This document shows, in pieces, positions 845 through 63,068 of a stretch of 64,000 bases of DNA. Location: the IMG/VR virus record IMGVR_UViG_3300031758_000004, positions 62,001 to 126,000 of that record; one strand, written 5' to 3'. The position numbers were made by a program, and so were the translations under genes. The DNA is from a virus. The notes under the pieces were generated by a model. That model was given only the letters and a program-made list of their open reading frames with translations, had not been told where the DNA came from and did no database searches. Position 1 is the first letter of the stretch. Every line of letters starts with the position of its first letter.

Positions 845-1194
845 TTTAATATCTGACTTAATTTTAATTCTCTTAATAACTGAATTAGTATAGGAGATGT
901 TCTGAATGGAAAATAGTGATTTGGGACTTCTTCATTTAAAAACTTTTTAAAGTTTAAAATTATTGTAGTTTCTTTATAATCTGATTTTGATAAATCAAAG
1001 TGGTAAATTCCCTTTTTAAAAGACTCTTGTAGATGTGATAACGAACACAAGTCATAAAATCCGTTAATAAATCCAAACCATTTTTTCATAAGATATTCTA
1101 AATCATTATTGAATTCATATTCAGATAACTCATTTTCATTTAGTATTTTTAATACCAAATAGTTTTTATCACTTAATGTTATTTTATTATCCAT
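841..1194 (-). CDS. Hypothetical protein, 117 aa
   Basis: A small protein with no recognised domain; the sequence mixes acidic and aromatic residues (KKWFGFINGFYDLC, FHFDLSKSDY-like). It is downstream of the FkbM methyltransferase on the same strand and overlaps that gene by 16 bases, so the two are almost certainly one transcript. It may assist or modify the same substrate, but nothing in the sequence shows this. It converges on the gene ending at 844. Confidence 0.65.
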   Translation of the reverse strand: MDNKITLSDKNYLVLKILNENELSEYEFNNDLEYLMKKWFGFINGFYDLCSLSHLQESFKKGIYHFDLSKSDYKETTIILNFKKFLNEEVPNHYFPFRTSPILIQLLRELKLSQILN

Positions 1195-1973
1195 TCTCTA
1201 CTATTATATAATTCATTTGGTATGGCAACAAAATCTAAACACAGACCAGATACGGTTTGAAAAGATATGCCTTCATTAAATCTTTTAGTAAAATAACCAT
1301 AATCATTTAATAAATTAACTACACTATTTTCATCCTCACCGTAATTTTGTAATTGATCTTCTTCGATTTCTATATAAATTATAGGACGATTTTTCATTAT
1401 AGTTTCTTTAGCACCCAATAAAACTCTTTTTTCATAACCTTGTACATCTATCTTAATTATAGATATATTTTCTATATTATAAGAATCTAATTTATGTAGT
1501 TGAACTAATTCATAATTTTCTTCAACACCAACATGAATATTTCCGAAATTAACAGGACCTTTATCAAAGTAATTGGGTTTTTCTATACTTATAAAACCCT
1601 CATTATCACCTAATGCTACATTAAAACAATGTACATTATCTAATCCATTGAAAAAAACATTTCCGCATAATTGATAGTAAATAATTCTTTGTGGTTCAAA
1701 TGAAAAGACTTTTCCATTATCACCAACTAAATTTGCAAATTCCACAGTTATTTGTCCATTATTTGCACCAATATCAACTACATTTGATCCAGATATATCT
1801 AAGTTGTTATCAACCAAAAATTGATATATCCAAGGTTCGTATAAGGTATTATTAAGAAGAGTTGATGTTACTGCATTATCATTCGGAAATAATAAATACC
1901 TTTTTTCTAAATTATCTCTTTTATTTGATATTGCTTCTATTCTAAATGTTGATTTCATTTGAATTTTATTCAA
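1179..1973 (-). CDS. FkbM-family SAM-dependent methyltransferase
   Basis: This is a 264-residue protein with the Rossmann SAM-binding motif VVDIGANNGQ (about residues 65-74), an acidic strand end FSFEPQ and the FkbM signature IIKIDVQGYEKRVLLGA near residue 180, followed by IYIEIE. The FkbM family (Methyltransf_21) O-methylates sugars or small molecules. A second FkbM domain occurs in the plus-strand protein at 12290-13819, so the phage carries at least two. With the nearby glycosyltransferases it suggests methyl-capping of a glycan on the virion or on the host surface; the substrate is inferred. The upstream region is shared with the divergent fibre gene at 2044. Confidence 0.88.
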   Translation of the reverse strand: MNKIQMKSTFRIEAISNKRDNLEKRYLLFPNDNAVTSTLLNNTLYEPWIYQFLVDNNLDISGSNVVDIGANNGQITVEFANLVGDNGKVFSFEPQRIIYYQLCGNVFFNGLDNVHCFNVALGDNEGFISIEKPNYFDKGPVNFGNIHVGVEENYELVQLHKLDSYNIENISIIKIDVQGYEKRVLLGAKETIMKNRPIIYIEIEEDQLQNYGEDENSVVNLLNDYGYFTKRFNEGISFQTVSGLCLDFVAIPNELYNSREWIIK

Positions 1974-2043
1974 ATAAGTAGGTTTGTTTTAAAAAAGGAT
2001 AATTTAAAAATAATATATATAGTAAATAAAATAAATTGTCTAA

Positions 2044-4413
2044 ATGAGTCAAATAATTTTCAATACCACGGTAGATATGCAAAACATTTTAGGAACTCCT
2101 TCGAGTGGTTTTGCTGTCGCATATGATCTAGATAACGTAATAAAACAAAAAGACTCTAGTGGTGTCATAACACCAATTGGTGGAGGAGGTGGTTCACAAT
2201 CACTAAAACAGACTTTGTCTATTGGTAATGACTCAGGTACATATTCAATTAATTTAGGTACGACAAGTTATATTAAAACATCAGTCGGAAATGGTAGACT
2301 TTATTTAAGTTATGGTAATACTTATAGTACATACATAATGAATGGTGATTTATCAACATCTACATCTTCTGTTAATTTAACACCAGATTTTATATCTATA
2401 AATAAAAGCACTACAAATCAATTTACCAAATTAGATCTATTTTCGAGTACATCATCTATAAATGTTGGAAGTTTAACCTACTCAACTACAATAAGAAATA
2501 ATAAAAATACCATTTCTTTATTGGTTAATCAATTAGGATTAGGTCCTGGTTTCGTTGAACCTATCAAAATAGGTAATATTTCGGATGGTAGTGATGGTTT
2601 GGTTAAATCATATCTACACTTGAATACAAATGGATCTACTACAAGTAATGGAGTTTATAATACGGTTATTATTGGTGGAGAGAACATATTAGCAACACAG
2701 TCTAATTTTGTTTATTTAGGTAATAATGTTAATATAAACAATGCTTATACCTTACCTAATACAGATGGTACCATTGATCAAGTTATGAGAACTGATGGAG
2801 TTGGAAATTTATACTGGTCTGACTCATCAGGATCAACGCCTGGTTTGTATCAAGTTTTAGCTGCTAGTGCTTACTCTGGTACTTACTCAATTTTTATGGG
2901 TACATCACAGTCTATAAAAAGTGAAAATGGAGATTCAGCAATATATTTAGATTATGATGGTATTTCTAATAATTTATATTTAACAAATAATATATCGGTA
3001 ACACAATCATATATACAGTTATCTGAAGATGTTTTATATATTGGAGCTACAAATGGTTTAGTTACTATAACTAATGGATTAGGACTTCAATATACCGATG
3101 ATTATACAGGAACATTTGTTACACACTCCTTGGTTACTAAAGGATATGTTGATAGTTTGAGTAACGGTTCTTACGAAAACTTTAAAACCGCTTATGTTGA
3201 CTCACAATATGGTGTTAACTCAACTGCTAAATTAAATAGAATTGATTTACCTTATTTAACATTCGCATCAGCATCCCAAGCTATAACAGATACTTATCCA
3301 TCAGGTGGTTTAATTTATATTAAGAAGGGACTTTACACAGAGGCTTGTGAACTATTGGATAATACTGATTATTATTGTGAACCAGGAGTTGTATTCTCTC
3401 AAAATGGTTTTAACGATGGTGGTGGTGATGTGAATTGTAATATCTATGGATATTCACAATTCAACGGCACTGATGCTACTTTAGTTGCTTTGGATGTTCA
3501 GAATAACTCAAATATTAATTTTGAATTTGACTCAATTAACAATTTACAAGTTGGTTTTAAAATTAATTCATCAACTGGAAATATTAATGTAAAAGGTAGA
3601 TATATTAAGTCACAAACTGACTATGGTAGTGTTATTTCAGTTGAAGGTGGTGGTAAATTTCATTTTGATATTAGAGATGGTATAATAGGAGCTTATGATG
3701 TTGTTTATATAAAATCTGGATTTACTGGTACTTTCTCAGTTACATCACCAAATATAGTATGTGATTCTTCTTTAAACGCATCTGGTGCGGTTGCTGACTA
3801 TGGACATGCACTTAATGTACATGAGTCAACATCTGGATATGTTATTGTAAATTCTAATTTATTAAATTCATCAACTTATATAGGTGGTAATAATTCAGCT
3901 GCTAAAATAGGGTCGGGTTATGTTACAATAAATGGTAATTTAAATGGTAATGATGAAATTGGGCTTTATTTAACCAATGGTCAAACCGGTGATGTTACCG
4001 TTAATGGTGATATTAATAGTAATAGAGAGGCTATTAAACATTTAGGAGACTTAATAAAACTAAAAGTAAATAATTCATTGATTAAATCAATGGGATTAGG
4101 TACGAGTACTTACTCTATTCATATAAATAGTGGTAGTCAATCAAGTACTTATTTATATAACACTACAATTTATAATGGATTAACTAATTCAAGTCTTATT
4201 TATATACAAGGAACAAATTCACAATTTGGATCTTACAATTCACTTGCTTATAGTGTTGGTACATCATCCGGATATTTTATTTACGGAACACCTTCATTTA
4301 ATGTTGGTATACATAATACTAGAAGTAATAAGGACAATTTTGAAGCTGTGAATGATATATTCTCACCTAGTGGGTTTATTTATGATACAAATTTATATTT
4401 ACCTATATTTTAA
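2044..4413 (+). CDS. Tail-spike or fibre protein with beta-helix-like region
   Basis: A 789-residue protein with the Ser/Thr/Asn/Gly-rich make-up of phage fibres. The first 130 residues have short repeated strands (YSINLGTTSYIKTS, later YSIFMGTSQSIKSE), so the N-terminal half holds a duplicated module. Residues about 395-690 carry a pectate-lyase-like opening (FASASQAITDTYPSGG, then IYIKKGLY) and regularly spaced strands typical of a right-handed parallel beta-helix, as in tail spikes. No catalytic residues can be assigned. It leads a row of three giant fibre genes, with an AT-rich leader containing AATAATATATATAG about 30 bases upstream. Confidence 0.8.
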   Translation: MSQIIFNTTVDMQNILGTPSSGFAVAYDLDNVIKQKDSSGVITPIGGGGGSQSLKQTLSIGNDSGTYSINLGTTSYIKTSVGNGRLYLSYGNTYSTYIMNGDLSTSTSSVNLTPDFISINKSTTNQFTKLDLFSSTSSINVGSLTYSTTIRNNKNTISLLVNQLGLGPGFVEPIKIGNISDGSDGLVKSYLHLNTNGSTTSNGVYNTVIIGGENILATQSNFVYLGNNVNINNAYTLPNTDGTIDQVMRTDGVGNLYWSDSSGSTPGLYQVLAASAYSGTYSIFMGTSQSIKSENGDSAIYLDYDGISNNLYLTNNISVTQSYIQLSEDVLYIGATNGLVTITNGLGLQYTDDYTGTFVTHSLVTKGYVDSLSNGSYENFKTAYVDSQYGVNSTAKLNRIDLPYLTFASASQAITDTYPSGGLIYIKKGLYTEACELLDNTDYYCEPGVVFSQNGFNDGGGDVNCNIYGYSQFNGTDATLVALDVQNNSNINFEFDSINNLQVGFKINSSTGNINVKGRYIKSQTDYGSVISVEGGGKFHFDIRDGIIGAYDVVYIKSGFTGTFSVTSPNIVCDSSLNASGAVADYGHALNVHESTSGYVIVNSNLLNSSTYIGGNNSAAKIGSGYVTINGNLNGNDEIGLYLTNGQTGDVTVNGDINSNREAIKHLGDLIKLKVNNSLIKSMGLGTSTYSIHINSGSQSSTYLYNTTIYNGLTNSSLIYIQGTNSQFGSYNSLAYSVGTSSGYFIYGTPSFNVGIHNTRSNKDNFEAVNDIFSPSGFIYDTNLYLPIF

Positions 4414-4430
4414 AAAGATTTTAATATGAG

Positions 4431-7400
4431 ATGCAAGAATCAAGATACGGAAGAACAAATATAACAGATGAATATTTAAGGTATCCATTTAATGGACCAT
4501 TAAACTACAACTATAATTATAGTGGGACTTTTTCTAAATATTCAATAATTGATAAATATTATGTAGATTCACTAGTTAAAAATACTAAAAGATTGATAAG
4601 TGGTGGGGCTGAGTGGTCATCTGGTATGACTTTTAGTTTAACTGATATATGGTATTCTTTTTCTGGTGAAATACTATCATACTCTGCTAGTTATCCCGGA
4701 TTAACAATTAGTAATGGTGATTCATCATATCCTAGAATTGACTCAATAGTAATTACAGAGGATAGAACAATTAGAGTTAAAAGAGGTGTTCCCTCAGCAA
4801 CTCCAGTTAAAACCCCTCTAAATGAAGATGAGATTTTAATACAATACGCTTATATACCAGCATCTGCTACAACTATTGGAAGTAAAGTTCCTGTTTATTT
4901 AACAGATGCTCAATGGCAATCAAGCTCTTATTTAGTTTCTGGTACTTATTCTGGTACAGTAAGTTTTACGAGTACTGATAATCCTTTCGATGGTGGTGGT
5001 GACTTTTGTGTCGATGTTACATCTGATTATAGAACAGGTGTTAGGTTTACAAAAGCAATTGGAACTATACCACTTTCAACATACGGTTCTTTGAGTTTAA
5101 GAGTTAGATTTTCTGAAAGAGTACCTGGTAATAGATCATTAGTTGCTCAAATACAAGGTACATCTTCTCAATTTACTGGAACTGCATCTAGTAGTGTTAT
5201 TAACTTAATGTCATACGGTGTTGATAGAGATGTTATTAATCAATGGCAACATATTGTTGTTCCTATGTCTAAGTTTGGTTCGGTAATTACCAATGCTAAA
5301 AATATATCATTTAGATTAATTGGTGGTTCACCAAATTCAAATCATAATTGGAAATTAGACAATATTTACTTTCAAAGTGGAGCGCCTTATGATGAATATA
5401 TGGGAGAACCTGATCCTTCTTCAACTGGTGGTTCATTTTCTTATATAGTTCAACAAAGTAATGAATGGTTAAAATCTGTTTTTGGTAGAACAAATAGTGT
5501 GCCGAGTGGTCCAACTGCTGGTGATAGATATTTAATTATACCAACTGCTAATGATATATTTACCGGAATGGAAGATCAAATTGCCGAATTTGATGGATTA
5601 GCAGCAACTTGGTCTTTTACTATACCAACTAATGGAACATCAATAAGAGTTGATAATGAAGACAACTCTATTTATAGATATGAAGGTGATTATAATACTG
5701 GTTCTTGGATTAAAGAATTATTAGCTCAAATAAGATATTTAGATGCTACTACATCAAATGCTGGTTTAAGCTATTCAGCAACATCTACACCTTTATTTGA
5801 CGCATATAACAAAGAAATGATTTATCTTATTTCTTTTGGTGCAACTAATTCAATTGGAACGGCTTCTTTATCAGTTAACAATTTAGAACACGTTACACTT
5901 AAAAAAATTGCTGCTACTTCTGGTGTTGTAAATCTTGAGCCTAACGATTTAAAAGTTGGTGGTGTTTATAGTGTTAGTTATGATGGTACTTATTTCCAAG
6001 TTAATTTAGGTGGTGGTGGTGTAGGTAGTTTTATCGAAAATCCAGGTGATTATAGAATTTTAACAGCTACTGGTACATCTAATAATCAAGCAATAGCAAA
6101 CTCAAACTTAACTTTTGATGGTACTACATTGGGTATAACTGGGTCTAATATATCTGGTAATTTAATATATGCTTCAGCATCATCAACTGACACACTAATT
6201 AATATAACTCAAAATGGATCAGGTGATTCATTAATAGTTAATTCAAATAACTCAACATTTGTAATTGATTCAAATGGAAATGTTGGTGTTGGTACTCAAT
6301 CAACAAATAACAAATTAGAAATATTTGGAACCGTTTCGACTTTTGGATTTCAATTAAAAAACGGTGGTACTGAAGGATACTTCTTAGTATCAGATTCTAA
6401 TGGAATTGGTACATGGACGGCATCTTTCCCAGGAGCTACGGGAGCTACCGGGTCATCCGGAACATCTGGAACATCAGGTACAAGTGGTGAACAAGGTACA
6501 TCAGGTACAAGTGGTGGTGGATCTGCTGGTACATCAGGTACTTCAGCCTTAGGATCATCTGGAACATCAGGTACAACTGGTGCTCCCGGAGAGACTTTAA
6601 GTCCTCAAGGTGTCGAGGCTTCATATTCGTCATTAACTCAAAGTGTTGGTACTGTAAATACAATACCAACACCTGGATTTCTAGATACTTACATTGTACA
6701 AGATACTGCTAGTTTATGGATTTATGATCCAACTTCAACAGCGGCTAACTCAGAAGGTTGGGTTGATATGGGTTCAATTCAAGGTCCAGCTGGTTTAGAT
6801 GGATCTGCTGGAACTTCAGGTACAAGTGGTAGTCAGGGTACATCTGGAACATCAGGTTCTAATGGAACATCTGGAACATCCGGAACTCAAGGTACATCCG
6901 GTACAAGTGGTGAGAATGGAACAAGTGGAACTTCTGGTTTACATGGATCTACTGGTACATCTGGAACTCAAGGAACATCTGGAACTCAAGGAACATCTGG
7001 AACTCAAGGAACAAGTGGGACTCAAGGAACATCCGGAACATCTGGTTTAAACGGATCTGCTGGAACACAAGGAACATCTGGAACAAAAGGAACAAGTGGA
7101 ACAAGAGGTTCATCAGGAACAAGTGGATCATCTGGGTCACAAGGTAATTCAGCTGGTATTCAATATAACTATGCTACTAGCACCACAAACTCAAATCCAG
7201 GCGTAACCAATTTGAGACTTTTGAGTAACTCACTACCAACAGTTGGAACTATATTAATAAGTATTATTGATTTAAATTCAATAGATGAGTCTGCTTGGTT
7301 ATCTTCTATGACAACTGGTTATTTAACTATTAGAGGTAACTCAAATGATTCTACAAATTCAGCGGTTTTTTATATATCAAATGTTTCTTTACAGACTAGT

Positions 7401-8261
7401 TCACCATTTAACTACTACTCATTGACAGTTGATACTACATATACATCTGGTAATTGGAATTTCGCCTCAACTGATATTGTTGTTTTAAACTTTTCTAAAA
7501 CTGGTGATGGTACATCAGGAACAAGTGGTTCTGCTGGAACAAGTGGCTTAAGTGGCTCAGCTGGGACAAATGGTACTTCTGGATCATCTGGAAATCAAGG
7601 AACATCTGGTACAAGTGGTGGTGGATCTGCTGGTACACGTGGAACATCCGGTACAAGTGGTGGTGGATCTGCTGGTACACGTGGAACATCCGGTACAAGT
7701 GGTGGTGGATCTGCTGGTACACGTGGAACATCCGGTACAAGTGGTGGTGGATCTGCTGGTACAAGTGGTTTATTATTATTGACTGGATCTACCGATAATG
7801 GTATTATTACATTAAATGGTACTCAACCAAATGCTACAGTAGAACAGTATTTAAAATATGACGGAACTACATTCACGGTTGGTAATGCAAGTGGTAATTT
7901 TTTCCAAGCTGGTAATGATACAATTATAATAGGTCTAACACCATCTTTATATGCTACTAAAGGAACTGTTATAGGAGTTGGTACTACAAATATCTTTTCT
8001 GTCGCAACAGCATCATATACTAGTATGTTTTATGAATATTATATTAAAAATGGAACTAATTTAAGAGCGGGTAATATAGTAGCGGTTTGGACAGGAAGTA
8101 GTATTCAATTCACCGAAACATCAACTATGGATATAGGTAATACCACAACTGGTGTAAATGCTTTTACATTCTCAGCTGTATTATCAACACCAAATGCAGT
8201 TTTACAAGGAATTTCATCATTGACAAATTGGGAAATTAGAACAATAATTAGAGCAATTTAA
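4431..8261 (+). CDS. Giant fibre protein with collagen-like GTSG repeats, 1276 aa
   Basis: The order of parts is: an N-terminal segment; a beta-sandwich, carbohydrate-binding-like region at about 150-310 (LSLRVRFSERVPG, WQHIVVPMSKFG, WKLDNIYFQSG); a region resembling DUF2793 at about 345-430 (GPTAGDRYLI, WSFTIPTNGT); a long beta-rich region; then three blocks of Gly-Thr-Ser triplets at about 673-720, 790-910 and 1025-1113, separated by globular inserts; and a conserved-looking C-terminal domain. Gly-X-Y triplets form collagen-like trimeric rods in phage fibres. The start ATG lies 17 bases after the previous stop. Several short open frames on both strands here are only shadows of the triplet repeats. 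Confidence 0.85.
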   Translation: MQESRYGRTNITDEYLRYPFNGPLNYNYNYSGTFSKYSIIDKYYVDSLVKNTKRLISGGAEWSSGMTFSLTDIWYSFSGEILSYSASYPGLTISNGDSSYPRIDSIVITEDRTIRVKRGVPSATPVKTPLNEDEILIQYAYIPASATTIGSKVPVYLTDAQWQSSSYLVSGTYSGTVSFTSTDNPFDGGGDFCVDVTSDYRTGVRFTKAIGTIPLSTYGSLSLRVRFSERVPGNRSLVAQIQGTSSQFTGTASSSVINLMSYGVDRDVINQWQHIVVPMSKFGSVITNAKNISFRLIGGSPNSNHNWKLDNIYFQSGAPYDEYMGEPDPSSTGGSFSYIVQQSNEWLKSVFGRTNSVPSGPTAGDRYLIIPTANDIFTGMEDQIAEFDGLAATWSFTIPTNGTSIRVDNEDNSIYRYEGDYNTGSWIKELLAQIRYLDATTSNAGLSYSATSTPLFDAYNKEMIYLISFGATNSIGTASLSVNNLEHVTLKKIAATSGVVNLEPNDLKVGGVYSVSYDGTYFQVNLGGGGVGSFIENPGDYRILTATGTSNNQAIANSNLTFDGTTLGITGSNISGNLIYASASSTDTLINITQNGSGDSLIVNSNNSTFVIDSNGNVGVGTQSTNNKLEIFGTVSTFGFQLKNGGTEGYFLVSDSNGIGTWTASFPGATGATGSSGTSGTSGTSGEQGTSGTSGGGSAGTSGTSALGSSGTSGTTGAPGETLSPQGVEASYSSLTQSVGTVNTIPTPGFLDTYIVQDTASLWIYDPTSTAANSEGWVDMGSIQGPAGLDGSAGTSGTSGSQGTSGTSGSNGTSGTSGTQGTSGTSGENGTSGTSGLHGSTGTSGTQGTSGTQGTSGTQGTSGTQGTSGTSGLNGSAGTQGTSGTKGTSGTRGSSGTSGSSGSQGNSAGIQYNYATSTTNSNPGVTNLRLLSNSLPTVGTILISIIDLNSIDESAWLSSMTTGYLTIRGNSNDSTNSAVFYISNVSLQTSSPFNYYSLTVDTTYTSGNWNFASTDIVVLNFSKTGDGTSGTSGSAGTSGLSGSAGTNGTSGSSGNQGTSGTSGGGSAGTRGTSGTSGGGSAGTRGTSGTSGGGSAGTRGTSGTSGGGSAGTSGLLLLTGSTDNGIITLNGTQPNATVEQYLKYDGTTFTVGNASGNFFQAGNDTIIIGLTPSLYATKGTVIGVGTTNIFSVATASYTSMFYEYYIKNGTNLRAGNIVAVWTGSSIQFTETSTMDIGNTTTGVNAFTFSAVLSTPNAVLQGISSLTNWEIRTIIRAI
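6955..7026 (+). repeat. 18-bp tandem repeats coding GTSGTQ
   Basis: About four in-frame copies of an 18-base unit (GGAACATCTGGAACTCAA with small variations) sit within the second collagen-like block. The last copy uses AGT/GGG codons instead of TCT/GGA, so copies have begun to diverge at synonymous sites. The unit is protein-coding, not an intergenic repeat. Confidence 0.85.
7599..7766 (+). repeat. Four 42-bp tandem repeats in the fibre gene
   Basis: Four consecutive 42-base units begin at 7599, 7641, 7683 and 7725, each coding GTSGTSGGGSAGTR. They are nearly identical; the first uses TCT where later ones use TCC, and the fourth ends in Ser instead of Arg. Such near-perfect repetition points to recent slippage or unequal recombination that changes rod length in 14-residue steps. 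Confidence 0.93.
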
Positions 8262-8289
8262 ACATTTTGGAATAAAAGAAGTTTATGAA

Positions 8290-8301
8290 TTTAATATATA
8301 C
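8290..8301 (+). promoter_or_regulatory. Putative phage promoter motif TTTAATATATAC
   Basis: TTTAATATATAC followed by TTT, 42 bases before the ATG at 8343, in the 81-base gap between two fibre genes. The same word occurs at 16382, 29302 and 46529 on the plus strand, and in shortened form (TTAATATATAC) at 41252-41242 and 52032-52022 on the minus strand. Function as a promoter is inferred from recurrence and position. Confidence 0.6.
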
Positions 8302-8342
8302 TTTAACTTATTTTGGAAAGTGAAAAAATTGAGTTATTGTAA

Positions 8343-11300
8343 ATGGGTAATGAATTCTTTGCTAGAAAAGGTCTAGCGCTTGGTACAGCTTCCGAAACAG
8401 CAACAGATAACCGAATATTAATATATGGTGCTGATGGTGTTCTAAAATATAGAACTGATATATCAGGTACGGGTACATCCGGTACATCCGGTACTCGTGG
8501 TACATCCGGTACATCCGGTATTCAAGGTACATCCGGTACTCGTGGTACATCCGGTACATCCGGTATTCAAGGTACATCCGGTACTCGTGGTACATCCGGT
8601 ACATCCGGATCACAAGGGCCTTCTTCCGGTCTTCTTTATAACTTTATTTCATCTGGTACAATGGCTGATCCAGGTGTTAGTAATTTTAAACTAATAAGAA
8701 CATCATCATTCTCAAATGTTACTAATATTTATATAAATGAGATTGATAATTTATCTGTTATACAAACATCTTATTTATTTGGTATAGGTGTAGGCGATTA
8801 TATAATTATAAGAGGTAATGATAACTCAACAACAAACTTTGGGATATTATATGTAACATCAAAAACTGATGTTGGATCTTATTGGGATTTTGGTGTTAGT
8901 GTTATATCCGGTAATTGGAATTTAAACTCATCATACTTATGTTCTATATCTATACAATTTTCCGGTACATCTGGTAGCCAAGGAACATCCGGAACATCTG
9001 GAGTTAAAGGTACTTCTGGTACTTCAGGAACCTCCTTATTAGTAGCCGGTGTTCAAAATCAAATACAGATTAATAATGGTTTAGGTGGATTGGGTCAATT
9101 TGGATTGATGGATTCGACTAGGGGTTCAATTCTTATAAACAATAGTAGTCCAATAAACACAACCGGATTGGATAATACATTTATAGGACATCAATCTGGT
9201 TGTGGTAACACAACCGGATTTAGTAATATATTCATCGGATCTCTATCTGGTTCTAATAATATAACCGGTTTTGAAAATATATTTATTGGTACTAAGTCAG
9301 GTTGTAGTAATACCTTTGGTGATAATAACTTATTCATTGGTAGTAATTCTGGTTGTAGTAACACAACTGGTAGTTATAACACATTTATAGGTAATTACTC
9401 AGCTAATTGCAACACAGTACAAATAGCTAACACTTATATTGGTGCTTTTACTGGTGCTGAATTACAAGGTCAATTCAATACTTTAGTTGGATATATTTCT
9501 GGTGGAGGTGGGGGGTTAATAAACGCCACTAGTTCTTACAACACATCACTAGGTGCAGCGTCTGGTGGATCTATATCATATGGTATTGGTCAAAATACAT
9601 ATATTGGATCTTTTGCTGGATACTCAGATTCATATGGATTTTCAAGTGTCATGATTGGATTTTGTTCAGGTGCTTGTACTGGTGTATCATCAACAAATTT
9701 ATTTATAGGTGCTTATAGTGGGGGTGGTAATAAGTATTCATGTCTAAATACATTTGTAGGATATCAAACCGGTGGATCTTTTAACCCAAATCCTAATTCA
9801 CAGAATGCAACAAATTCACAAAAATGCAACGTGATATTTGGTCATCAATCTGGTTTTTTAAGTTTTTATTCCTGTGATAATACATATTTGGGATTTAGAT
9901 CTGGTTATTCGGGAACACAATCATCATTTAATACATTTATAGGTTTTTGTTCAGGATATTCCAATATTATAAACAGTAATACATTTATTGGATATCTATC
10001 GGGTAATAAAAATACAATTGGATCTTCTAATTCATTTATCGGTTATAAATCTGGGAGTGAAAACACAACAGGATCTTTCAACACTTTCATTGGATATCAA
10101 TCAGGTATGTGTAATTTAACCGGGATTGCTAATGTATTTATAGGACACTGTACTGGTGGTAGTAACACAGCAGGTGAAAGAAATACATTTATTGGCGTTA
10201 ACGCTGGAGTTTCTAATACGGTCGGAATTTGTAATACTTATATTGGTCAAGGTGCTGGTTATAGTAATACAACAACTAGCGAAAATATCTATATTGGTAC
10301 ATTATCCGGTTTTTCTAGTAATGGTGCGTCAAATACGATATCAATGGGTGTTAGAGCTGGGTATTTTACATCTGGTTCTGATAATATATTTATAGGTAAT
10401 TGCTCTGGTTATGATAATAATATTGGTTTTAGTAATGTATATATTGGAAAATTATCCGGTTTCAGTGGAACCCAATCGTCTCAAAATACATTTATTGGTG
10501 TTTGCTCTGGTTATAATAACAAAACTAGTACCAATACATTCGTTGGATTTTGCTCCGGATCTTCCAACACATCAGGTTCAAATAATACATTCATTGGTAA
10601 TCTTAGTGGTTCTACTAACGTAACTGGTTCAAATAATACATTTGTTGGTAATCAAGCGGGTTTCAGTAATACAACTGGACATGAAAATACATTTGTTGGT
10701 AAATCGAGTGGTTACTATAATGTTTCTGGTGAATGTAATACTTTTATTGGAGCAGATGCTGGTTATTGTAATACTACTGGTCGAAGAAATACATTTATAG
10801 GTACTTGTGCAGGATGTTGTGCTAATGGACTTGATAATACGTTTATTGGATATCATTCTGGTAAGTCAGCGATAAATAATGGTGGTTGTGGTACTGATAA
10901 CACATTTGTAGGATCTTGTACAGGTCCAGTTAATACAACTGGTGAATTAAATACATTCATTGGTTCTGGTACTGGTTATTCAAATACATCAGGTAGATTA
11001 AATACATTCTTAGGTACTAATGCTGGTTTTGAAAATACCACTGGTTTTGAAAATACTATTGTTGGTGTACAAGCAGGACAGTATAACACAATTGGAAATT
11101 ATAACTCATTCTTTGGTGTTTATGCTGGATGGCAAAATACAACTGGTATATCAAACACATATATAGGTTGGGCATCGGGTGCATCAAATGTTTCGGGTCA
11201 AGGTAATACATTTATTGGTGAATCATCTGGTTATGGTAATACAAGTGGTATTTATAATACATTTATCGGATATTGCTCTGGTTTTGTTAGTGAAACTGGT

Positions 11301-11978
11301 GATTATAATACATTTGTAGGTGTTAATACTGGTTGTGTTAATACAGACGGATGTAATAATACATTTGTAGGATATGCTGCTGGTAGAGCAAATACAACAA
11401 CCGGTAACACATTTGTTGGTGCTTTTTCTGGTTTATCCAACACAACTGGTGTAGGTAATACATTTATTGGTAATAGTTCTGGTTATAATAATACAAGTGG
11501 TCGTGGAAACGTATTTATTGGAAACAATGCCGGATATTGTAATTGTAATGATGCTAATTTTAATACATTTGTTGGTGGTGAAGCTGGTAAAAATAATTTA
11601 TTCTCTTGTGCTCACACATTTGTTGGATATGCAGCTGGTTATTGTAATACAACTGGAGCAAACAACACATTCTTGGGTAGAGCGGCTGGTTACTATAATA
11701 CAACCGGTGGTAACAACATATTTATTGGTGAATGTACTGGTCTAAATCAAACAACGGGTAGGTTTAATACATTTATTGGTACGTGTGCTGGTATCAGTGG
11801 TAATTACTCATGTGCTATTGCAATTGGTATGAGAGCTCAACCAAGTGTAGATGGTCAATTAGCTTTAGGTTCATCACTTTATCCATTAGCCACAGCTGTT
11901 TCGGCTGGTGCGATTGCTGGTTACATATGTACAAATATAAATGGTACTAACTATAAGATACCTTATTATGCAGTTTAA
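8343..11978 (+). CDS. Giant fibre/adhesin with about fifty 17-residue YadA-like repeats
   Basis: A 1211-residue protein. Residues 42-92 are collagen-like GTS triplets, then comes a globular beta region, a second short triplet block (about 206-232), and from about 272 to 1155 a long array of 17-residue repeats of the form NTFIGxxSGxxNTTGxx. This spacing, with Ile/Val-Gly turns, resembles the left-handed beta-roll of YadA-type (Hep_Hag) adhesin heads. Many x positions are Cys (SGCGN, SGCSN, AGCC), unusual for such repeats. The C-terminus (LALGSS, then INGTNYKIPYY) looks like a fibre-tip ending common in Bacteroidota phages. It probably forms a long trimeric fibre. Confidence 0.85.
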   Translation: MGNEFFARKGLALGTASETATDNRILIYGADGVLKYRTDISGTGTSGTSGTRGTSGTSGIQGTSGTRGTSGTSGIQGTSGTRGTSGTSGSQGPSSGLLYNFISSGTMADPGVSNFKLIRTSSFSNVTNIYINEIDNLSVIQTSYLFGIGVGDYIIIRGNDNSTTNFGILYVTSKTDVGSYWDFGVSVISGNWNLNSSYLCSISIQFSGTSGSQGTSGTSGVKGTSGTSGTSLLVAGVQNQIQINNGLGGLGQFGLMDSTRGSILINNSSPINTTGLDNTFIGHQSGCGNTTGFSNIFIGSLSGSNNITGFENIFIGTKSGCSNTFGDNNLFIGSNSGCSNTTGSYNTFIGNYSANCNTVQIANTYIGAFTGAELQGQFNTLVGYISGGGGGLINATSSYNTSLGAASGGSISYGIGQNTYIGSFAGYSDSYGFSSVMIGFCSGACTGVSSTNLFIGAYSGGGNKYSCLNTFVGYQTGGSFNPNPNSQNATNSQKCNVIFGHQSGFLSFYSCDNTYLGFRSGYSGTQSSFNTFIGFCSGYSNIINSNTFIGYLSGNKNTIGSSNSFIGYKSGSENTTGSFNTFIGYQSGMCNLTGIANVFIGHCTGGSNTAGERNTFIGVNAGVSNTVGICNTYIGQGAGYSNTTTSENIYIGTLSGFSSNGASNTISMGVRAGYFTSGSDNIFIGNCSGYDNNIGFSNVYIGKLSGFSGTQSSQNTFIGVCSGYNNKTSTNTFVGFCSGSSNTSGSNNTFIGNLSGSTNVTGSNNTFVGNQAGFSNTTGHENTFVGKSSGYYNVSGECNTFIGADAGYCNTTGRRNTFIGTCAGCCANGLDNTFIGYHSGKSAINNGGCGTDNTFVGSCTGPVNTTGELNTFIGSGTGYSNTSGRLNTFLGTNAGFENTTGFENTIVGVQAGQYNTIGNYNSFFGVYAGWQNTTGISNTYIGWASGASNVSGQGNTFIGESSGYGNTSGIYNTFIGYCSGFVSETGDYNTFVGVNTGCVNTDGCNNTFVGYAAGRANTTTGNTFVGAFSGLSNTTGVGNTFIGNSSGYNNTSGRGNVFIGNNAGYCNCNDANFNTFVGGEAGKNNLFSCAHTFVGYAAGYCNTTGANNTFLGRAAGYYNTTGGNNIFIGECTGLNQTTGRFNTFIGTCAGISGNYSCAIAIGMRAQPSVDGQLALGSSLYPLATAVSAGAIAGYICTNINGTNYKIPYYAV
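8481..8615 (+). repeat. Three 45-bp tandem repeats in the fibre gene
   Basis: Three consecutive 45-base units (8481, 8526, 8571) code GTSGTRGTSGTSGIQ; the third ends in SQ. They are identical except at the last codons, so the amplification is recent. They lie in the N-terminal collagen-like block. Confidence 0.93.
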
Positions 11979-12004
11979 TAAATAAAAAAAAATAAAAATA
12001 AATT

Positions 12005-12256
12005 ATGTCAATTATTAATGTACAAAACAAAGAAGTAGTAACTACTCAAACAATTTCACAAGTTGAAATTTTAGAAGGAAATATTCAATTAGGTCAATCA
12101 GTTAGATTTCCTGTTAAATTATTGGATGCGAGTTCAAAATTAATTAGTATTGAGTTTGTTGAAGTTTCTGGTGATGATTACGCATCTTGGGGAACTGATG
12201 ATACTTATATCAATAACTTAGTTTTAACTACTTTGGGATTAACAGCTTCAGTTTAA
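12005..12256 (+). CDS. Small hypothetical fibre-associated protein, 83 aa
   Basis: A compact, mildly acidic protein without Cys and without a membrane segment (core SVRFPVKLLDASSKLISIEF, end LTTLGLTASV). It starts 27 bases after the giant fibre gene behind an A-rich leader and is followed by the sugar-transfer operon. Its size and position resemble the small genes that follow receptor-binding genes at 57351, 60788, 61026 and 61305, although I see no clear sequence similarity. A role as fibre cap, chaperone or minor virion protein is possible. Confidence 0.7.
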   Translation: MSIINVQNKEVVTTQTISQVEILEGNIQLGQSVRFPVKLLDASSKLISIEFVEVSGDDYASWGTDDTYINNLVLTTLGLTASV

Positions 12257-12289
12257 TAAACATTTTAAACTACTCAACATATAAGTAAT

Positions 12290-13819
12290 ATGTTTGAGAA
12301 ACCATTAGGTGGTACAGAATTGATGTATAATGAGTTGATATCAAGAGTACCCAAAGAATTATTAGATAAAATAAGCATATTTAATTATGTTCCAAATGCT
12401 GATCCCAGTAAACATATGGTTTACTGGAATCAGCTTTCTTATGACCAAGAAGCTGTTCAATTTCTTCAACATGAACAAAATATTAATTTAATTAATAATT
12501 TTATTTTTGTGAGTAATTGGCAAGCAGAACAATTTAGAAAAATTTTCAAAGTTCCTGGTCAAAAAACTCATGTCTTAAAAAATGCACACTTAGGTGTTTT
12601 TCCAAAAAAAATAACAAAAAAAGAAAAATTAAAAATTTGTTATACATCAACACCTTGGAGAGGATTAGATGTTTTGCTTTTAGCGTGGGAGATCTTAAAT
12701 CCACAAGATTGTGAATTACACGTTTTTTCTTCTTGTAAAATTTATGGTACTGATTTTTCTAAAAATGATAATCAGTATGAATTTCTTTATGATTGGTGTA
12801 AAAGATTGCCAAATGTAGTTTATAGAGGGTCTATACCGAATGATGAATTAAGAAAAGAATTACCGGAATTTGACATTCTAGCTTATCCGTCAACATTTGA
12901 AGAAACTTCTTGTGTTGCTGTTATTGAAGCTTTAGCAACTGGTTTAAGAGTTGTTACATCATCAATTGGTGCTCTTCCAGAAACTTGTGAAGGTTGGGCT
13001 AGAATGTACTCTTATATTGAAGATAGAGAACAACACGGTCAATTTTTTGCTAAAGTTTTAGCAGAAGAGATTGAAAAAATGAAATCTGGTGATTTAGTAG
13101 AACACCTAAAAACTCAACAAGAAGTTTATTCTAAAAACTGGAGTTGGGAAACAAGAATTAAAGATTGGAATAACTTTTTCAAATCAATTGGTTGGAAAGA
13201 ACAAAATGATAATTCACTGAAACAAATTTCTAATTATTTTACACCACAATCTATACTTGATATTGGTGCTAACGTTGGGCAATTTTATTTAAATTGTAAA
13301 AGTATTTATCCTGAAGCTAAATATCATTTAGTAGAAGGTAATCCAATGTGTGAAAGTAAAATAAAAGAGTTTGGTGAAGATTATTCAATTGTACTTTTAA
13401 GTGATGATGTTAAAGAAGTTGACTTTTGGATGAGAACTGATGATCCATACGCAACTGGTAATTCAATCTATAAAGAAAATACTCAGTATTATAATAATTC
13501 TTTATCAGTTAAAAAACAAACAAAAACATTGGACTCATTATTTGAAAATAAATCATTTGATTTAATTAAAATTGATACACAAGGTTCTGAATTAGATATT
13601 TTAAAAGGTGGTAAAGATTTGGTTAATTTAGCTAAGGGAATCATTATGGAAGTTTCATATTCTCAATATAATGATGGTTCTCCATTGTCAGAAGAAGTTA
13701 TCGAATACATGAATAATATAGGATTTACTAAAGTTTCTATTATTGAATCTATAAATCATCCAGAAACAGGAGCTCATATACAAGATAATGTTCTTTTCAT
13801 AAAAAATAATTTGTTATAA
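12290..13819 (+). CDS. GT4 glycosyltransferase fused to FkbM methyltransferase
   Basis: A 509-residue two-domain enzyme. Residues 1-300 form a GT-B, family-4-like transferase: GGTELMYNEL at the start, YTSTPWRGLDVLLLAW after the linker, and the sugar-nucleotide site FDILAYPSTFEETSCVAVIEA with GLRVV behind it. Residues about 313-509 form an FkbM methyltransferase: SILDIGANVGQF, YHLVEGNP, and FDLIKIDTQGSELDILKGG. One polypeptide would therefore transfer a sugar and methylate it or its acceptor, in the cytoplasm. The N-terminus is short for GT4 (no full first Rossmann strand), so it may be trimmed. Its stop overlaps the next start (TAATG). Confidence 0.88.
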   Translation: MFEKPLGGTELMYNELISRVPKELLDKISIFNYVPNADPSKHMVYWNQLSYDQEAVQFLQHEQNINLINNFIFVSNWQAEQFRKIFKVPGQKTHVLKNAHLGVFPKKITKKEKLKICYTSTPWRGLDVLLLAWEILNPQDCELHVFSSCKIYGTDFSKNDNQYEFLYDWCKRLPNVVYRGSIPNDELRKELPEFDILAYPSTFEETSCVAVIEALATGLRVVTSSIGALPETCEGWARMYSYIEDREQHGQFFAKVLAEEIEKMKSGDLVEHLKTQQEVYSKNWSWETRIKDWNNFFKSIGWKEQNDNSLKQISNYFTPQSILDIGANVGQFYLNCKSIYPEAKYHLVEGNPMCESKIKEFGEDYSIVLLSDDVKEVDFWMRTDDPYATGNSIYKENTQYYNNSLSVKKQTKTLDSLFENKSFDLIKIDTQGSELDILKGGKDLVNLAKGIIMEVSYSQYNDGSPLSEEVIEYMNNIGFTKVSIIESINHPETGAHIQDNVLFIKNNLL

Positions 13820-14736
13820 TGGATAAATACGTTGTACTTCATATTGAAGGTGGTATTGGAAAAAATGTAATTGCTACAGCTGTTATTAGAGCAATTCAAA
13901 AAAAGTATAAAAATAGAAAGATAATCGTTTTAACTGCTTATCCAGATATTTTTGAATTAAACCCAAGAGTTCATAGAGCATATCAATTTGGTCAAACTCA
14001 ATATTTTTACCAAGAGTATATTGAAAATAAAGACACTATTGTTATGTCACATGATCCTTATAGAGAAAGTGATTATATTTACCGAAAAAAACATCTTTCT
14101 CAAATCTGGTGTGATATGTATGGTATTGAATGGGATGGAGAACAACCAGAACTTTACTTTACACAATTAGAAGCTGAGTTTGTTCAAACACTTATCAATA
14201 AAGATAAACCAATATTCTTAATCAATGCTTTTGGTGGAGCTGTTAATCAACAACATAAGTACTCTTGGGCGAGAGATATTCCACCAGTTTTAGCACAAGA
14301 TATTGTTGATGAGGCATCTAAATATTATAGAGTTATTCAAGTAAGAAGAGAAGATCAAATTGCTCTTAAAAATTGTGAATATTTATCATTAAGTATTAGA
14401 CAATTAGCTTTAGCACTTCTTCAATCTGATAAGAGATTATTAATTGATTCTTATTTACAACATGCGGCAGCTTCTTTAAATCTACCATCTGTTGTACTTT
14501 GGAGTTGTAATTCACCAAAAGTATTTGGGTATAAAATACACACAAATATCTCTTCTAAATTTCAAGCTGCTAGTTTAAAAAATTCTTTATATGAAGCTTA
14601 TGATATATCAGGTGATCCTATTCAATTAGCTACACCACCTGGTGTGATGTTTGATAAACAACAAATATTAAAAGCACTTAACTTTGACACTACACTATTA
14701 GAAGTTGAACATAAAAAAGAATTAGAAAACGTATGA
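13819..14736 (+). CDS. GT9-like glycosyltransferase (heptosyltransferase family)
   Basis: A 305-residue protein. The N-terminal LHIEGGIGKNVIATAVIRAI with a following IIVLTAYPDIF is typical of the ADP-heptose:LPS heptosyltransferase family. The C-terminal half has LLIDSYLQHAAASLNLPSVVLW, matching the donor-binding region where a conserved aspartate precedes a helix and the strand VVLW. It overlaps its upstream neighbour by one base and its downstream neighbour by four, so the three sugar enzymes are translated together. Substrate and donor cannot be read from the sequence; transfer to a virion glycan or to the host envelope are both possible. Confidence 0.78.
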   Translation: MDKYVVLHIEGGIGKNVIATAVIRAIQKKYKNRKIIVLTAYPDIFELNPRVHRAYQFGQTQYFYQEYIENKDTIVMSHDPYRESDYIYRKKHLSQIWCDMYGIEWDGEQPELYFTQLEAEFVQTLINKDKPIFLINAFGGAVNQQHKYSWARDIPPVLAQDIVDEASKYYRVIQVRREDQIALKNCEYLSLSIRQLALALLQSDKRLLIDSYLQHAAASLNLPSVVLWSCNSPKVFGYKIHTNISSKFQAASLKNSLYEAYDISGDPIQLATPPGVMFDKQQILKALNFDTTLLEVEHKKELENV

Positions 14737-15479
14737 AAAAAGAAGTAATATTAATAGCCTTATTAACATTTAGAGATTCGGTTAATGTTAGTTTCTTATG
14801 GTGGTTAGATAACATAAGAAAGTTAAATAATGATCCAAACCATCCAAGAACATATGAAGTTATGTATGTCCCTGGTTTAAGACCAGTTGCTTACGCTAGA
14901 AACGTGGCAATTACAAACTTCTTAAATAATAAGACTGCTGATAAATTGTGGTTTATTGATGATGATTTAGTACCAACCGAAACAGCTCTAAATATTTTTA
15001 ATTCAGATGCTGATATTGTTTCAGGACTTTACTATCTTCTTTTAATGGAAGGCTCAAGACCTACACTTAGTTCAGCCATTTATCAAAAAGATGGTGATGA
15101 AAATAACCCAAAAGGATTTCAAGCAATTAATCCAAAAAACTATAAAGGCCAAAGTCAAATTATTCCAATTGATGCGGCTGGTACTGGTTCACTACTAATT
15201 AGTAGAAAAGTTGCTGAAGATCAAAGAATGATGTTGAGTAAGAAGTATGTTTCAGCTGATGGTAAACCAACCGAATTGGGTGATGATGAGGCACTTCCAA
15301 TTTTTAGAACTCTTTCTAAAGCAAATGGTTCAGAAGAAAGATCAGAAGATATTGATTTTGTTTGGAGAGCTAAAGAATTAGGTTATAAAGTAGAAGCTGT
15401 ATTAGATGCGAGATTTCTACATAAAAAAGAAATGTTAGTTGACTGGTCAGTATGGCAAGTTAACGGTGAAATTAGTTAA
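14733..15479 (+). CDS. GT2-like (GT-A fold) glycosyltransferase
   Basis: A 248-residue protein with ARN (in PVAYARNVAITNFL), the metal-binding acidic motif WFIDDDLVP, a DAAGTGSLLISRK segment and the late EDIDFVWRAKELGYKVEAV motif, which together are the usual order of a GT-A family-2-like transferase. It overlaps the GT9-like gene by four bases and is followed after one base by a small membrane protein. As part of this operon it probably builds or extends a glycan with the two preceding enzymes. Donor and acceptor are unknown. Confidence 0.8.
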   Translation: MKKEVILIALLTFRDSVNVSFLWWLDNIRKLNNDPNHPRTYEVMYVPGLRPVAYARNVAITNFLNNKTADKLWFIDDDLVPTETALNIFNSDADIVSGLYYLLLMEGSRPTLSSAIYQKDGDENNPKGFQAINPKNYKGQSQIIPIDAAGTGSLLISRKVAEDQRMMLSKKYVSADGKPTELGDDEALPIFRTLSKANGSEERSEDIDFVWRAKELGYKVEAVLDARFLHKKEMLVDWSVWQVNGEIS

Positions 15480-15480
15480 T

Positions 15481-15753
15481 ATGGAAAAAAGTAAAGGTGG
15501 TATTGGTGTAACGTCAATTTTATTTTTAATATTCTTAACTTTGAAATTGACTAATAATATTGATTGGTCTTGGTGGTGGGTTACTTCACCAATTTGGATA
15601 CCAGTTTGTATTGTACTTATTGTATTTTTATTTGCTTTTCTTTTCTTTTTTGGATGGGCAGTTATACTTCTTTCAAGAGGAGTTGATGCTGATACAATCA
15701 GAGAAAAGTTTAAAAATATAGCAGATATTAAAAACGAAAAACCTCAACAATAG
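15481..15753 (+). CDS. Small membrane protein with two transmembrane segments
   Basis: I chose the ATG at 15481, one base after the glycosyltransferase stop, over an in-frame ATG at 15439 that would overlap that gene by 41 bases. The 90-residue product has a hydrophobic segment near residues 10-22, a Trp-rich turn (DWSWWW) and a second, longer hydrophobic stretch (about 35-62), then a charged cytoplasmic-type tail ending in KPQQ. It could anchor the glycosyltransferases to the membrane or move their product. The gene ends inside a strong terminator hairpin. Confidence 0.72.
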   Translation: MEKSKGGIGVTSILFLIFLTLKLTNNIDWSWWWVTSPIWIPVCIVLIVFLFAFLFFFGWAVILLSRGVDADTIREKFKNIADIKNEKPQQ

Positions 15754-27144: not shown

Positions 27145-29013
27145 TTATTTTAATAGATCCTCTAATTGTTCAACAGTAATAACTTCTACTCCCAAATCAA
27201 GAGCCTTTTTCTCTTTAGAAGAACCAGAACCAATCGCTTTCATAACTAAGTGTGTTGTGTTTTTACTAACACTACCACCAATTTTACCACCACGAGATTC
27301 AATAACCTCTTCTAATTCTTTTCGACGAACTCCTGTGAATACAAACTGCTTACCTTCTAAGTCATTAGAAACTTGTACTACTTCAACTTTCTCAGAAATA
27401 GTAACTGGTAAATCAGAAATAAACTCGAAGAACTTATCATAATTATCAACATAAGTTTTAGCAGAAATCTCAGCAAATCCTTCAATTTCCATAACTTTTC
27501 CAACAGTAGGTTTTTCATTGAAGTGTTCTAACAGAGCTAACTTTTTACTTCCTAATCCAGAGAAGATGCCAGTAGCGTGTTGTAATTTAGATAATTGAAC
27601 ACCAGTGATAGACTTTTGAATTGAGTCATAAACAATTTTAGCTTTACGTTTACCAAAACGATCAATCTTTTCTAAGTTTTCTACTTTAAGATTTAAAATA
27701 TCTTTAATAGTTTTATAACCAGCATCCCACAATTGTGTGATAACACCTTCTGAAACATTATCAGCTTCTAATATCTCAAAGAAAGCGATATTCTTTTTTA
27801 ATTTTTGCTCTTCTGTTTCAGTTAATGTGATTAACTCAATACCAGCCTCATTCCAATCAATCTCAACACCTTCGATAGTTGGTAAAACAAATTCAACTGT
27901 TTCTAATACGTCAGCAATAATTGGAATAACCATACCACTACGTTTAACAACAACTTTAGCACCAACTCCCAATCCCATATCTTTTACGAAACGAGCGTTA
28001 TTACCAGTTACATTAGATACAGTAACTCCGTCTAATTTAACAGGTTTGATATGTAATACCGGTTTTAATAAACCTTGTTTAGAAATATTCCAAGTAATAC
28101 CAATTACTTCTGTTTCAGCTGATTGCTCGAAACTTGGGTGTTTGAATGCTCTTGCGAATACTGGGTTACCTGATGAAGTTTCACGACCTAATGATGATTG
28201 TGTTGCTAAGTTATTTACCTCTAAGATAATACCATCAATCTCATATTCTTCAGACCATTCTTTAAATAAAGAGATAAGTAATTCTTCTGTTAAATCTAAA
28301 ATGCCACAAACATGATAAGGTACTTTTACTTTTTGATTCTCATTTAATTCATCTAATATTTGTTGTTTAGTGGTGAAATGATTTCTGAATTTTGATGATG
28401 GAATAGCACCATATTTAATAAAGTTACAATCTTTTAAAGCTTCTCTCGCATCTGGTGAGTTGATAAGACCAGCCACGAAGTTTCTTGGGTTAGCATAATC
28501 ATTTGAGTATTTATCGATAAATACTCGTTTAGGCATAATAACTTCACCATAACTATGTGAGAAAGTAATAGGTGCGAAAGGATCTATATCATTTTCAATG
28601 TCATATAACTTGTTTCCTATAAGTTTATAGTGTTCATTTGATTTTTGACCATAAACACCATCTCCACGAGTGATAGCATCACCGTTGTTTTCTTCATCTT
28701 TACATAAAGAAAGACCATCATATTTAGGTGTACAGATAATTTCAACAGAGTTTGGGATAAGTTTAAGACGTTGCCAGTCTTTAATTTCTTCTAAAGACTT
28801 AATTTTGTTCATAGAAGCCATTGGAATAGGTAGACGAGTTTTTCTCGTTTCGTCAAGAATTTCATGTCCTACAACAGATAACAATTCATCATCTGGTGAC
28901 ATATCAGATAACTCTTCTACAAGAATATCATATTCTTTATCAGACATAATTGGTTTTCCAATTCTATATGCCTCGTTTGCTTCTTTAATCTTATTCTTTA
29001 ATTGTTCTATCAT
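27145..29013 (-). CDS. ligA: NAD-dependent DNA ligase
   Basis: A 622-residue NAD-dependent ligase. Visible parts: the Ia-like N-terminal (SDKEYDILVEEL), adenylation domain with nucleophilic Lys97 in CTPKYDGLSL, the ITRGDGVYGQ and YANPRNFVAG motifs, EIDGIILEVN, the OB domain (SKQGLLKPVLHIKPVKL, GAKVVVKRSGMVIPII), helix-hairpin-helix repeats (NLEKIDRFGKRKA, FSGLGSKKLA) and a C-terminal BRCT domain (KQFVFTGVRRKELEEVIES). The four-Cys zinc finger normally found after the OB domain is absent; that stretch contains no Cys. It joins nicks in phage DNA replication. It is about 50 residues shorter than bacterial LigA, matching that loss. Confidence 0.96.
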   Translation of the reverse strand: MIEQLKNKIKEANEAYRIGKPIMSDKEYDILVEELSDMSPDDELLSVVGHEILDETRKTRLPIPMASMNKIKSLEEIKDWQRLKLIPNSVEIICTPKYDGLSLCKDEENNGDAITRGDGVYGQKSNEHYKLIGNKLYDIENDIDPFAPITFSHSYGEVIMPKRVFIDKYSNDYANPRNFVAGLINSPDAREALKDCNFIKYGAIPSSKFRNHFTTKQQILDELNENQKVKVPYHVCGILDLTEELLISLFKEWSEEYEIDGIILEVNNLATQSSLGRETSSGNPVFARAFKHPSFEQSAETEVIGITWNISKQGLLKPVLHIKPVKLDGVTVSNVTGNNARFVKDMGLGVGAKVVVKRSGMVIPIIADVLETVEFVLPTIEGVEIDWNEAGIELITLTETEEQKLKKNIAFFEILEADNVSEGVITQLWDAGYKTIKDILNLKVENLEKIDRFGKRKAKIVYDSIQKSITGVQLSKLQHATGIFSGLGSKKLALLEHFNEKPTVGKVMEIEGFAEISAKTYVDNYDKFFEFISDLPVTISEKVEVVQVSNDLEGKQFVFTGVRRKELEEVIESRGGKIGGSVSKNTTHLVMKAIGSGSSKEKKALDLGVEVITVEQLEDLLK

Positions 29014-29037
29014 AATACAAATATAATAAAATTATTA

Positions 29038-29259
29038 TTAAATTCTTAATTGATTTAATTTATAATCTCTAGTTTCTCTAATCTTTTCTACTCCTTTTAA
29101 GTGTTTTAGTTTAGTTTTATATGAAGCTGCGCAAGACTTTGAACAACAAAGCCCCCATCCTCTTTTCAAATTTCTTTTATCTGGTATAAAACTAGATTTA
29201 CAATAAAGACAGAATGACTCTTCTTTTTTACTTTTAGCTTTATCAAATAAATTCTTCAT
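29038..29259 (-). CDS. Small zinc-finger protein, 73 aa
   Basis: A basic protein with CLYC, then CCSKSC about 20 residues later (C-x2-C ... C-x3-C), followed by a Lys/Arg-rich tail. The pattern resembles the 44-residue protein at 19017-19151 and is typical of small nucleic-acid-binding zinc ribbons in phages. It is 24 bases upstream of the ligase gene on the same strand, so the two are probably co-transcribed; its own upstream region is divergent with the structural operon at 29335. Confidence 0.7.
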   Translation of the reverse strand: MKNLFDKAKSKKEESFCLYCKSSFIPDKRNLKRGWGLCCSKSCAASYKTKLKHLKGVEKIRETRDYKLNQLRI

Positions 29260-29301
29260 TCTACAAATATATGAAAAATTTTACATGAAAGAAAGCATTT
29301 T

Positions 29302-29313
29302 TTTAATATATAC
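29302..29313 (+). promoter_or_regulatory. Putative phage promoter motif TTTAATATATAC
   Basis: The full motif, its last base exactly 22 bases before the ATG at 29335. The same 22-base spacing is seen for the minus-strand copies before 41220 and 52000. A purine-rich GAAAGAAAG lies just upstream. Confidence 0.68.
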
Positions 29314-29334
29314 TAAAAAATCAAATAGAATAAG

Positions 29335-32577: not shown

Positions 32578-32594
32578 TAAAAAATTTATAATAA

Positions 32595-55767: not shown

Positions 55768-55780
55768 AAATAAAAAATAA

Positions 55781-55812
55781 AAGAGTGTTTCATAATAGGA
55801 ACACTCTTTTCT
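55781..55812 (+). terminator. Rho-independent terminator
   Basis: AAGAGTGTT / AACACTCTT stem, 10-base loop, followed by TT and CT. It ends the coiled-coil fibre gene and separates it from the receptor-binding array. Confidence 0.85.
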
Positions 55813-55831
55813 AAAAAATAAATAAAAAATA

Positions 55832-57334: not shown

Positions 57335-57350
57335 AAAAATAAAATAAATT

Positions 57351-57572: not shown

Positions 57573-57588
57573 AAAATAATAAAAAACT

Positions 57589-59088: not shown

Positions 59089-59104
59089 AAAATAATAAAA
59101 AACT

Positions 59105-60736: not shown

Positions 60737-60787
60737 AATTATCATAATTATAGTTTTATGATAAATAAAATAAAAAAATAAATTAAC

Positions 60788-61009: not shown

Positions 61010-61025
61010 AAAAAAATAAAATATT

Positions 61026-61250: not shown

Positions 61251-61252
61251 AT

Positions 61253-61276
61253 AAAAGACCTCTTATGAGGTCTTTT
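61253..61276 (+). terminator. Rho-independent terminator
   Basis: AAAAGACCTC / GAGGTCTTTT, perfect 10-bp stem with TTAT loop, then CT. Confidence 0.9.
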
Positions 61277-61304
61277 CTAAAAAATAAAAAATAAGTAATA
61301 AACG

Positions 61305-61532: not shown

Positions 61533-61534
61533 AT

Positions 61535-63057: not shown

Positions 63058-63068
63058 ACTATATAAAT

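Follow-up and report, generated by a model that had tools for sequence, protein, structure and literature searches.

This phage probably O-glycosylates its own fibres, with methylation of the added sugars; we infer this best-supported reading from gene content and gene neighbourhood. The window, the whole 64,000-nucleotide stretch analysed (positions 62,001 to 126,000 of IMGVR_UViG_3300031758_000004), is a piece of a 191,442-base viral record. Two near-identical records (100% identity) add 11.9 kb to its left end and 64.7 kb to its right end, giving a phage genome of at least ~268 kb. Gene content, gene order, folds, TibC membership with its catalytic residues and the statistical link to fibres with Gly-Thr-Ser (GTS) triplets were computed here; the fibres are the putative acceptors and the sugar identities are predictions.

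A minus-strand FkbM gene comes first; the plus strand then carries three Ser/Thr-rich fibre genes, a small ORF, the genes for a GT4-FkbM fusion, a GT9-fold and a GT-A-fold glycosyltransferase (GT), and a membrane protein gene. Fibre and GT genes lie on one strand with gaps of < 90 bases, and the GT genes overlap. Inspection of the fibre-to-GT interval revealed no convincing terminator; stem-loops are found at 15.74 and 16.2 kb. Such a region would be a module that combines fibres with the enzymes that modify them.

The first fibre-like protein (2044-4413, plus strand; 789 aa) contains 175 Ser+Thr (22%) and 3 GTS triplets, has no GTS tract and matches no family in Pfam or PHROGs. Giant fibre 2 (4431-8261, plus strand; 1276 aa) contains 369 Ser+Thr (29%) and 43 GTS triplets, and matches PF01391 (E 9e-21) and PHROG tail fibre families. 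Its four collagen-like tracts comprise 67 triplets, in which X is Thr in 41/67, Y is Ser in 38/67 and Pro occupies 2 of the 134 positions; the longest G-X-Y tract (6783-7151, plus strand; residues 785-907) is proposed as the acceptor stalk. Giant fibre 3 (8343-11978, plus strand; 1211 aa, 296 Ser+Thr or 24%, 16 GTS triplets) matches PF01391 (E 3e-8), phrog_6002 (E 2e-52) and the tail spike family phrog_4636 (E 5e-52). Short GTS collagen tracts near its N-terminus (8472-8624 and 8964-9035) precede ~43 copies of a 17-residue repeat, NTFIGxxSGxxNTTGxx, which make up most of the protein. PHROGs labels the families matched by fibres 2 and 3 as tail fibre, tail spike or virion structural protein. 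Shuffled sequence gives 1.1, 4.1 and 3.2 GTS triplets for fibres 1, 2 and 3, against the 3, 43 and 16 present. The preliminary description, in which the giant fibres have Thr and Ser by the hundreds within GTS triplets, overstates the number, because the 62 triplets hold 124 Ser/Thr; GTS tracts do occur in fibres 2 and 3, but fibre 1 lacks one and fibre 3 is mostly the 17-residue repeat.

Within a GTS tract of fibre 2 (7599-7768), the window differs in the copy number of a 42-bp unit from another record of the same phage (L011, ≥ 99.98% identical). Because two of the records of this phage stop within GTS repeats, the difference may reflect either assembly or a true variation in length. Further along, a row of paralogous fibre-like genes (53176-63998), several with an MTQxxVGWR start, runs on past the window and is followed by a DUF2827 protein (record 130932-132212; 308 bits, E 1e-91).

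The same preliminary description placed two FkbM domains and three glycosyltransferases around the fibres, and this is borne out by profile matches (FkbM, GT4), PHROG matches and AlphaFold2 (AF2) folds (GT9, GT-A). The separate FkbM-family methyltransferase (1179-1973, minus strand; 264 aa) matches PF05050 (E 7e-18) and TIGR01444 (103 bits) and is divergent from the fibre 1 gene. Between fibres and GT genes lies an 83-aa ORF (12005-12256, plus strand) with no family match in Pfam or PHROGs. The 509-aa fusion (12290-13819, plus strand) has a GT4 N-terminal half (PF13692, E 4e-10; phrog_2170, E 1e-36) and an FkbM C-terminal half (PF05050, E 4e-17). PF05050 scores above cut-off in these two window proteins and in one encoded at record 6608-8185. 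The next protein (13819-14736, plus strand; 305 aa) has no Pfam GT match. Compared with VIA-align, its AF2 model (pLDDT 61) is closest to the GT9 structure 3tov (Z 13.9), TibC (Z 12.1) and WaaF/WaaC (~Z 12; WaaF 12.0), with other GT-B folds at Z < 9, and predicts a GT-B fold nearest to GT9/heptosyltransferases, a placement to be read with a pLDDT of only 61. The last of the three (14733-15479, plus strand; 248 aa) matches PHROG glycosyltransferase families (E 4e-11 to 5e-5; phrog_1574, E 4e-11; phrog_34859, glycosyltransferase, E 5e-5), and its alignment shows that Asp and Glu-Asp motifs of the kind usual in GT-A enzymes are conserved. GT-A enzymes account for nearly all of the top matches to its AF2 model (Z 11-14); together with the conserved Asp motif, this predicts a GT-A fold at a model pLDDT of 58. 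A resemblance of the model to human LH3/COLGALT1 was set aside, the scores being tied with those of other GT-A enzymes. Searching the PDB with phmmer gave no useful match for the GT9-like protein or for the GT4 protein with a GT25 match described below. Close relatives of the GT4-FkbM and GT-A proteins were sought, and the matches were two records of the same phage only. The end of the region (15439-15753) encodes a small membrane protein and is no glycosylation gene; it matches phrog_1374 (E 2e-21), a family without assigned function, and overlaps the 3' end of the GT-A gene.

A parallel GT/FkbM operon of three overlapping genes lies outside the window (record 4282-9905, minus strand). The left end of the record is itself a GTS fibre, complete in record G002 as a 1208-aa open frame with 40 GTS triplets, and is followed by a further GTS fibre (1028 aa, 83 GTS). 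The operon is upstream of both on the same strand, with two short opposite-strand ORFs in between. Its genes encode a GT4 protein (record 8169-9905, minus strand), whose weak match to GT25 (procollagen galactosyltransferase-like) is under the Pfam cut-off and was set aside, an FkbM methyltransferase (record 6608-8185, minus strand) and a 783-aa protein with a C-terminal TibC domain (record 4282-6633, minus strand). With ADP-heptose as donor, TibC and Aah heptosylate repetitive autotransporter adhesins; in TibC, D110 is catalytic, K230 binds the sugar and Cys residues form the iron finger (PMC4358343). The phage protein matches TIGR04414 with 293 bits (cut-off 200; profile 28-372 of 374) and TibC in the PDB (4rap) with E 5e-57, and no PHROGs family matches it. 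In the alignment the catalytic Asp and the sugar-binding Lys are kept and all four iron-finger Cys align with those of TibC; the D110 and K230 equivalents are invariant in 17 phage TibC-family sequences. An LDSD motif suggests that the N-terminal domain of the 783-aa protein is GT-A-like. A TibC-family paralogue (L350:12538-13641) in a phage has lost the iron-finger Cys and keeps the catalytic Asp. A scan of five fibres of this phage gave no match to the strand-loop-strand repeat TIGR04415, so the acceptor would be of another kind.

The linkage of such enzymes to GTS fibres extends to other viruses, and many other phages seem to glycosylate their fibres likewise. Viral contigs of ≥ 30 kb carrying a GTSGTSGTSG-coding pattern (n = 44) were compared with contigs drawn by random 14/16-mers (n = 45). 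TIGR04414 occurs in 20/44 versus 1/45 (Fisher p 6e-7), FkbM in 17/44 versus 2/45 (p 6e-5) and GT4 in 22/44 versus 7/45 (p 5e-4), and the difference is still there among contigs of < 42% GC (p 0.0015 to 0.006). These p values are optimistic, since the sequences are phylogenetically related, and the association is correlational. Contigs with proline-type collagen have TibC in 2/37 cases, versus the 20/44 of GTS contigs (p 3e-5); of these two, one locus has 27 GTS triplets as well, and the second has a Ser/Thr-rich collagen. Counting against fibre glycosylation, 24/44 GTS contigs lack a TibC match, although many of these are fragments. In tests that rotate the enzyme positions, 15/20 contigs have GT4/FkbM no further than 5 kb from a GTS gene (expected 7.6; reached in 0/4000 rotations), and 11/18 have TibC that close (expected 5.0, p 0.001). 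Linkage of FkbM by itself is marginal (13 contigs, 5 kb, p 0.07), becoming clear after GT4 joined the enzyme set and contigs with GT4 alone were included.

The reverse test started from a TibC alignment-based query alone, which gave at least 591 matches; 80 loci in 55 clusters among them were examined. A GTS fibre ORF is present in 36/80 of these loci (30/55 clusters) and in 0/154 random loci, which average half the length, a shortness that cannot explain 0/154. Relatives of the GT9-like protein of the window (≥ 100 bits) are found in 15/55 of these TibC clusters versus 0/154 random loci, and FkbM-type matches in 22/55 versus 1/154. Among the random controls TibC occurs in a single contig (G067), where a giant Ser/Thr-rich fibre lies ~4 kb from it; another fibre protein, ~12 kb from TibC, carries strand-loop-strand repeats of the AIDA-I type (TIGR04415 just below cut-off), the known target of heptosylation. 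In an isolate, Microcystis phage Mel-JY01, a GT4-TibC fusion directly follows a structural protein; its sole annotation is methyltransferase FkbM. Genes resembling ADP-heptose synthase are present in a number of TibC contigs (above cut-off in G015; below in G067, G014 and others), so either host or phage may supply the donor. In one GTS contig (G035) a sulfotransferase (L391:17225-18043; PF13469, E 2e-20) adjoins a homologue of the GT9-like gene of the window; sulfated glycans are possible there.

On the proposed mechanism, the soluble GT4-FkbM, GT9-like and GT-A enzymes and the separate FkbM protein would put short O-methylated glycans on Ser/Thr of the neighbouring fibres. The main acceptors would be the dense Gly-Thr-Ser collagen-like stalks, modified in the cytoplasm late in infection, before or during virion assembly. 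The operon at record 4282-9905 would treat two further GTS fibres likewise: its TibC-type protein O-heptosyltransferase would set the first sugar, and the fused and neighbouring GT domains would extend it. That the three GTs of the window itself act on protein is suggested because of their neighbourhood and because the GT9-like family is shared with TibC loci; the fibres would be their substrate. Glycans may stabilize the proline-free stalks, confer resistance to proteases or antibodies, or tune adsorption; by the earlier suggestion they might hide the fibres or alter binding.

The GT and FkbM genes could instead modify the host surface, its LPS or its capsule, e.g. as a block to superinfection, and lie next to fibres only through a shared host-interaction hypervariable region. 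For pelagimyophages, the authors read the glycosyltransferases of the hypervariable region around the fibres as LPS modification (PMC7029224), and the FkbM, GT4, GT2, GT11 and Glf families turn up frequently in loci for surface polysaccharides. This phage has a third glycan cluster of that composition (28300-35300 of G001, IMGVR_UViG_3300042691_041718), with FkbM, three GT2, GT11, UDP-galactopyranose mutase (Glf) and DUF3431; no GTS fibre is nearby, so some of its GTs need not act on fibres. Against a host target, the TIGR04414 members of known function modify proteins, not LPS (PMC4358343), the association is with Ser/Thr-type and not proline-type collagen fibres, and in the random-control contig G067 the phage itself encodes an AIDA-type target. 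The correlational nature of the association, the kinship of the sequences, the low pLDDT of the models, the lack of a TibC member in the window cluster, the position of GT4 relatives outside fibre regions in two isolates, the third cluster and the published LPS reading keep fibre glycosylation at probable, and a host-surface role at unlikely though deserving some weight. The earlier proposal that the fibres are O-glycosylated and methylated is thus upheld in part: TibC near GTS fibres and the contig associations speak for it, while a host-surface target rivals it and the window GTs are assigned their substrate from context.

Independent cargo genes might also have come to lie beside the fibres with no common function, as fibre regions of large phages are hot spots of gene exchange; a second GT/FkbM operon by GTS fibres in the same genome and the linkage found over many contigs in the rotation and reverse tests make such chance quite improbable. 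Least credible of all is glycosylation of phage DNA bases (hypermodification) by the window GTs, as by the glucosyltransferases of T4-like phages: the GT4 domain does have relatives in the DNA-metabolism regions of two phages, Sinorhizobium phage phiM12 and Stenotrophomonas phage DLP6, away from fibres, but the window genes sit with fibres, FkbM fusions fit sugar O-methylation, the thymidylate synthase of the genome matches ThyA and keeps the dUMP-type Asn, so that alignment speaks against a dCMP hydroxymethylase and no such hydroxymethyl-pyrimidine synthesis gene is seen, and no Tet/JBP match was obtained in a search whose positive control gave no signal.

The usual reading of glycosyltransferases in large phages is that they modify DNA or the host. 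The recurrent tie between a protein-O-glycosylating family and Ser/Thr-type collagen-like fibres offers a concrete, testable substrate for many of them, would extend autotransporter-type heptosylation to viruses, and hints at how nearly proline-free collagen-like fibres might gain stability. More tentatively, and with doubt prevailing, many phages may use a dedicated system of TibC-type, GT4, GT9-like and FkbM enzymes whose sugars replace proline/hydroxyproline in stabilizing nearly proline-free GTS collagen-like stalks, a kind of collagen peculiar to phages; the idea that glycans would stabilize proline-free stalks comes from glycosylated collagens in general. A literature search on phage heptosyltransferases with fibres and on the GTS motif in phages did not find the combination of TibC and GTS fibre. 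The bacterial heptosyltransferase family was known before, as was virion glycosylation in mycobacteriophages (cited in PMC12619734).

Freeman et al. 2023, as cited in PMC12619734, reported glycans on mycobacteriophage structural proteins, at capsid and tail-tube C-termini; here glycans are predicted from genes and proposed on collagen-like fibres. Another parallel is the family of bacterial autotransporter heptosyltransferases with TibC and Aah (BAHT; NCBIfam TIGR04414), to which the protein at record 4282-6633 belongs by score, catalytic Asp, Lys and iron-finger Cys. The family is further marked by a dodecamer and by heptosyl transfer to Ser; known members modify Ser in bulk on long repetitive adhesins, which the phage fibres would parallel. 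Unlike those members, this one is phage-encoded and fused to a putative GT-A-like N-terminal domain, its operon includes neighbouring GT4 and FkbM genes that suggest a longer methylated glycan, and the fibres adjacent to phage members are Gly-Thr-Ser collagen-like rather than strand-loop-strand, G067 excepted. Side-tail fibres of the EPclA type share with the window fibres a collagen-like stalk, but EPclA collagen has much Pro (X position) and many charged residues, and the recombinant protein was not glycosylated (PMC3368898). By comparison, the tracts of the window are almost pure Gly-Thr-Ser, with Pro at 2 of 134 positions. In BclA-like bacterial collagen-like proteins, Thr of the Gly-X-Y triplets is an O-glycan acceptor; BclA is a spore exosporium protein with GPT triplets, glycosylated by other enzymes than those described here.
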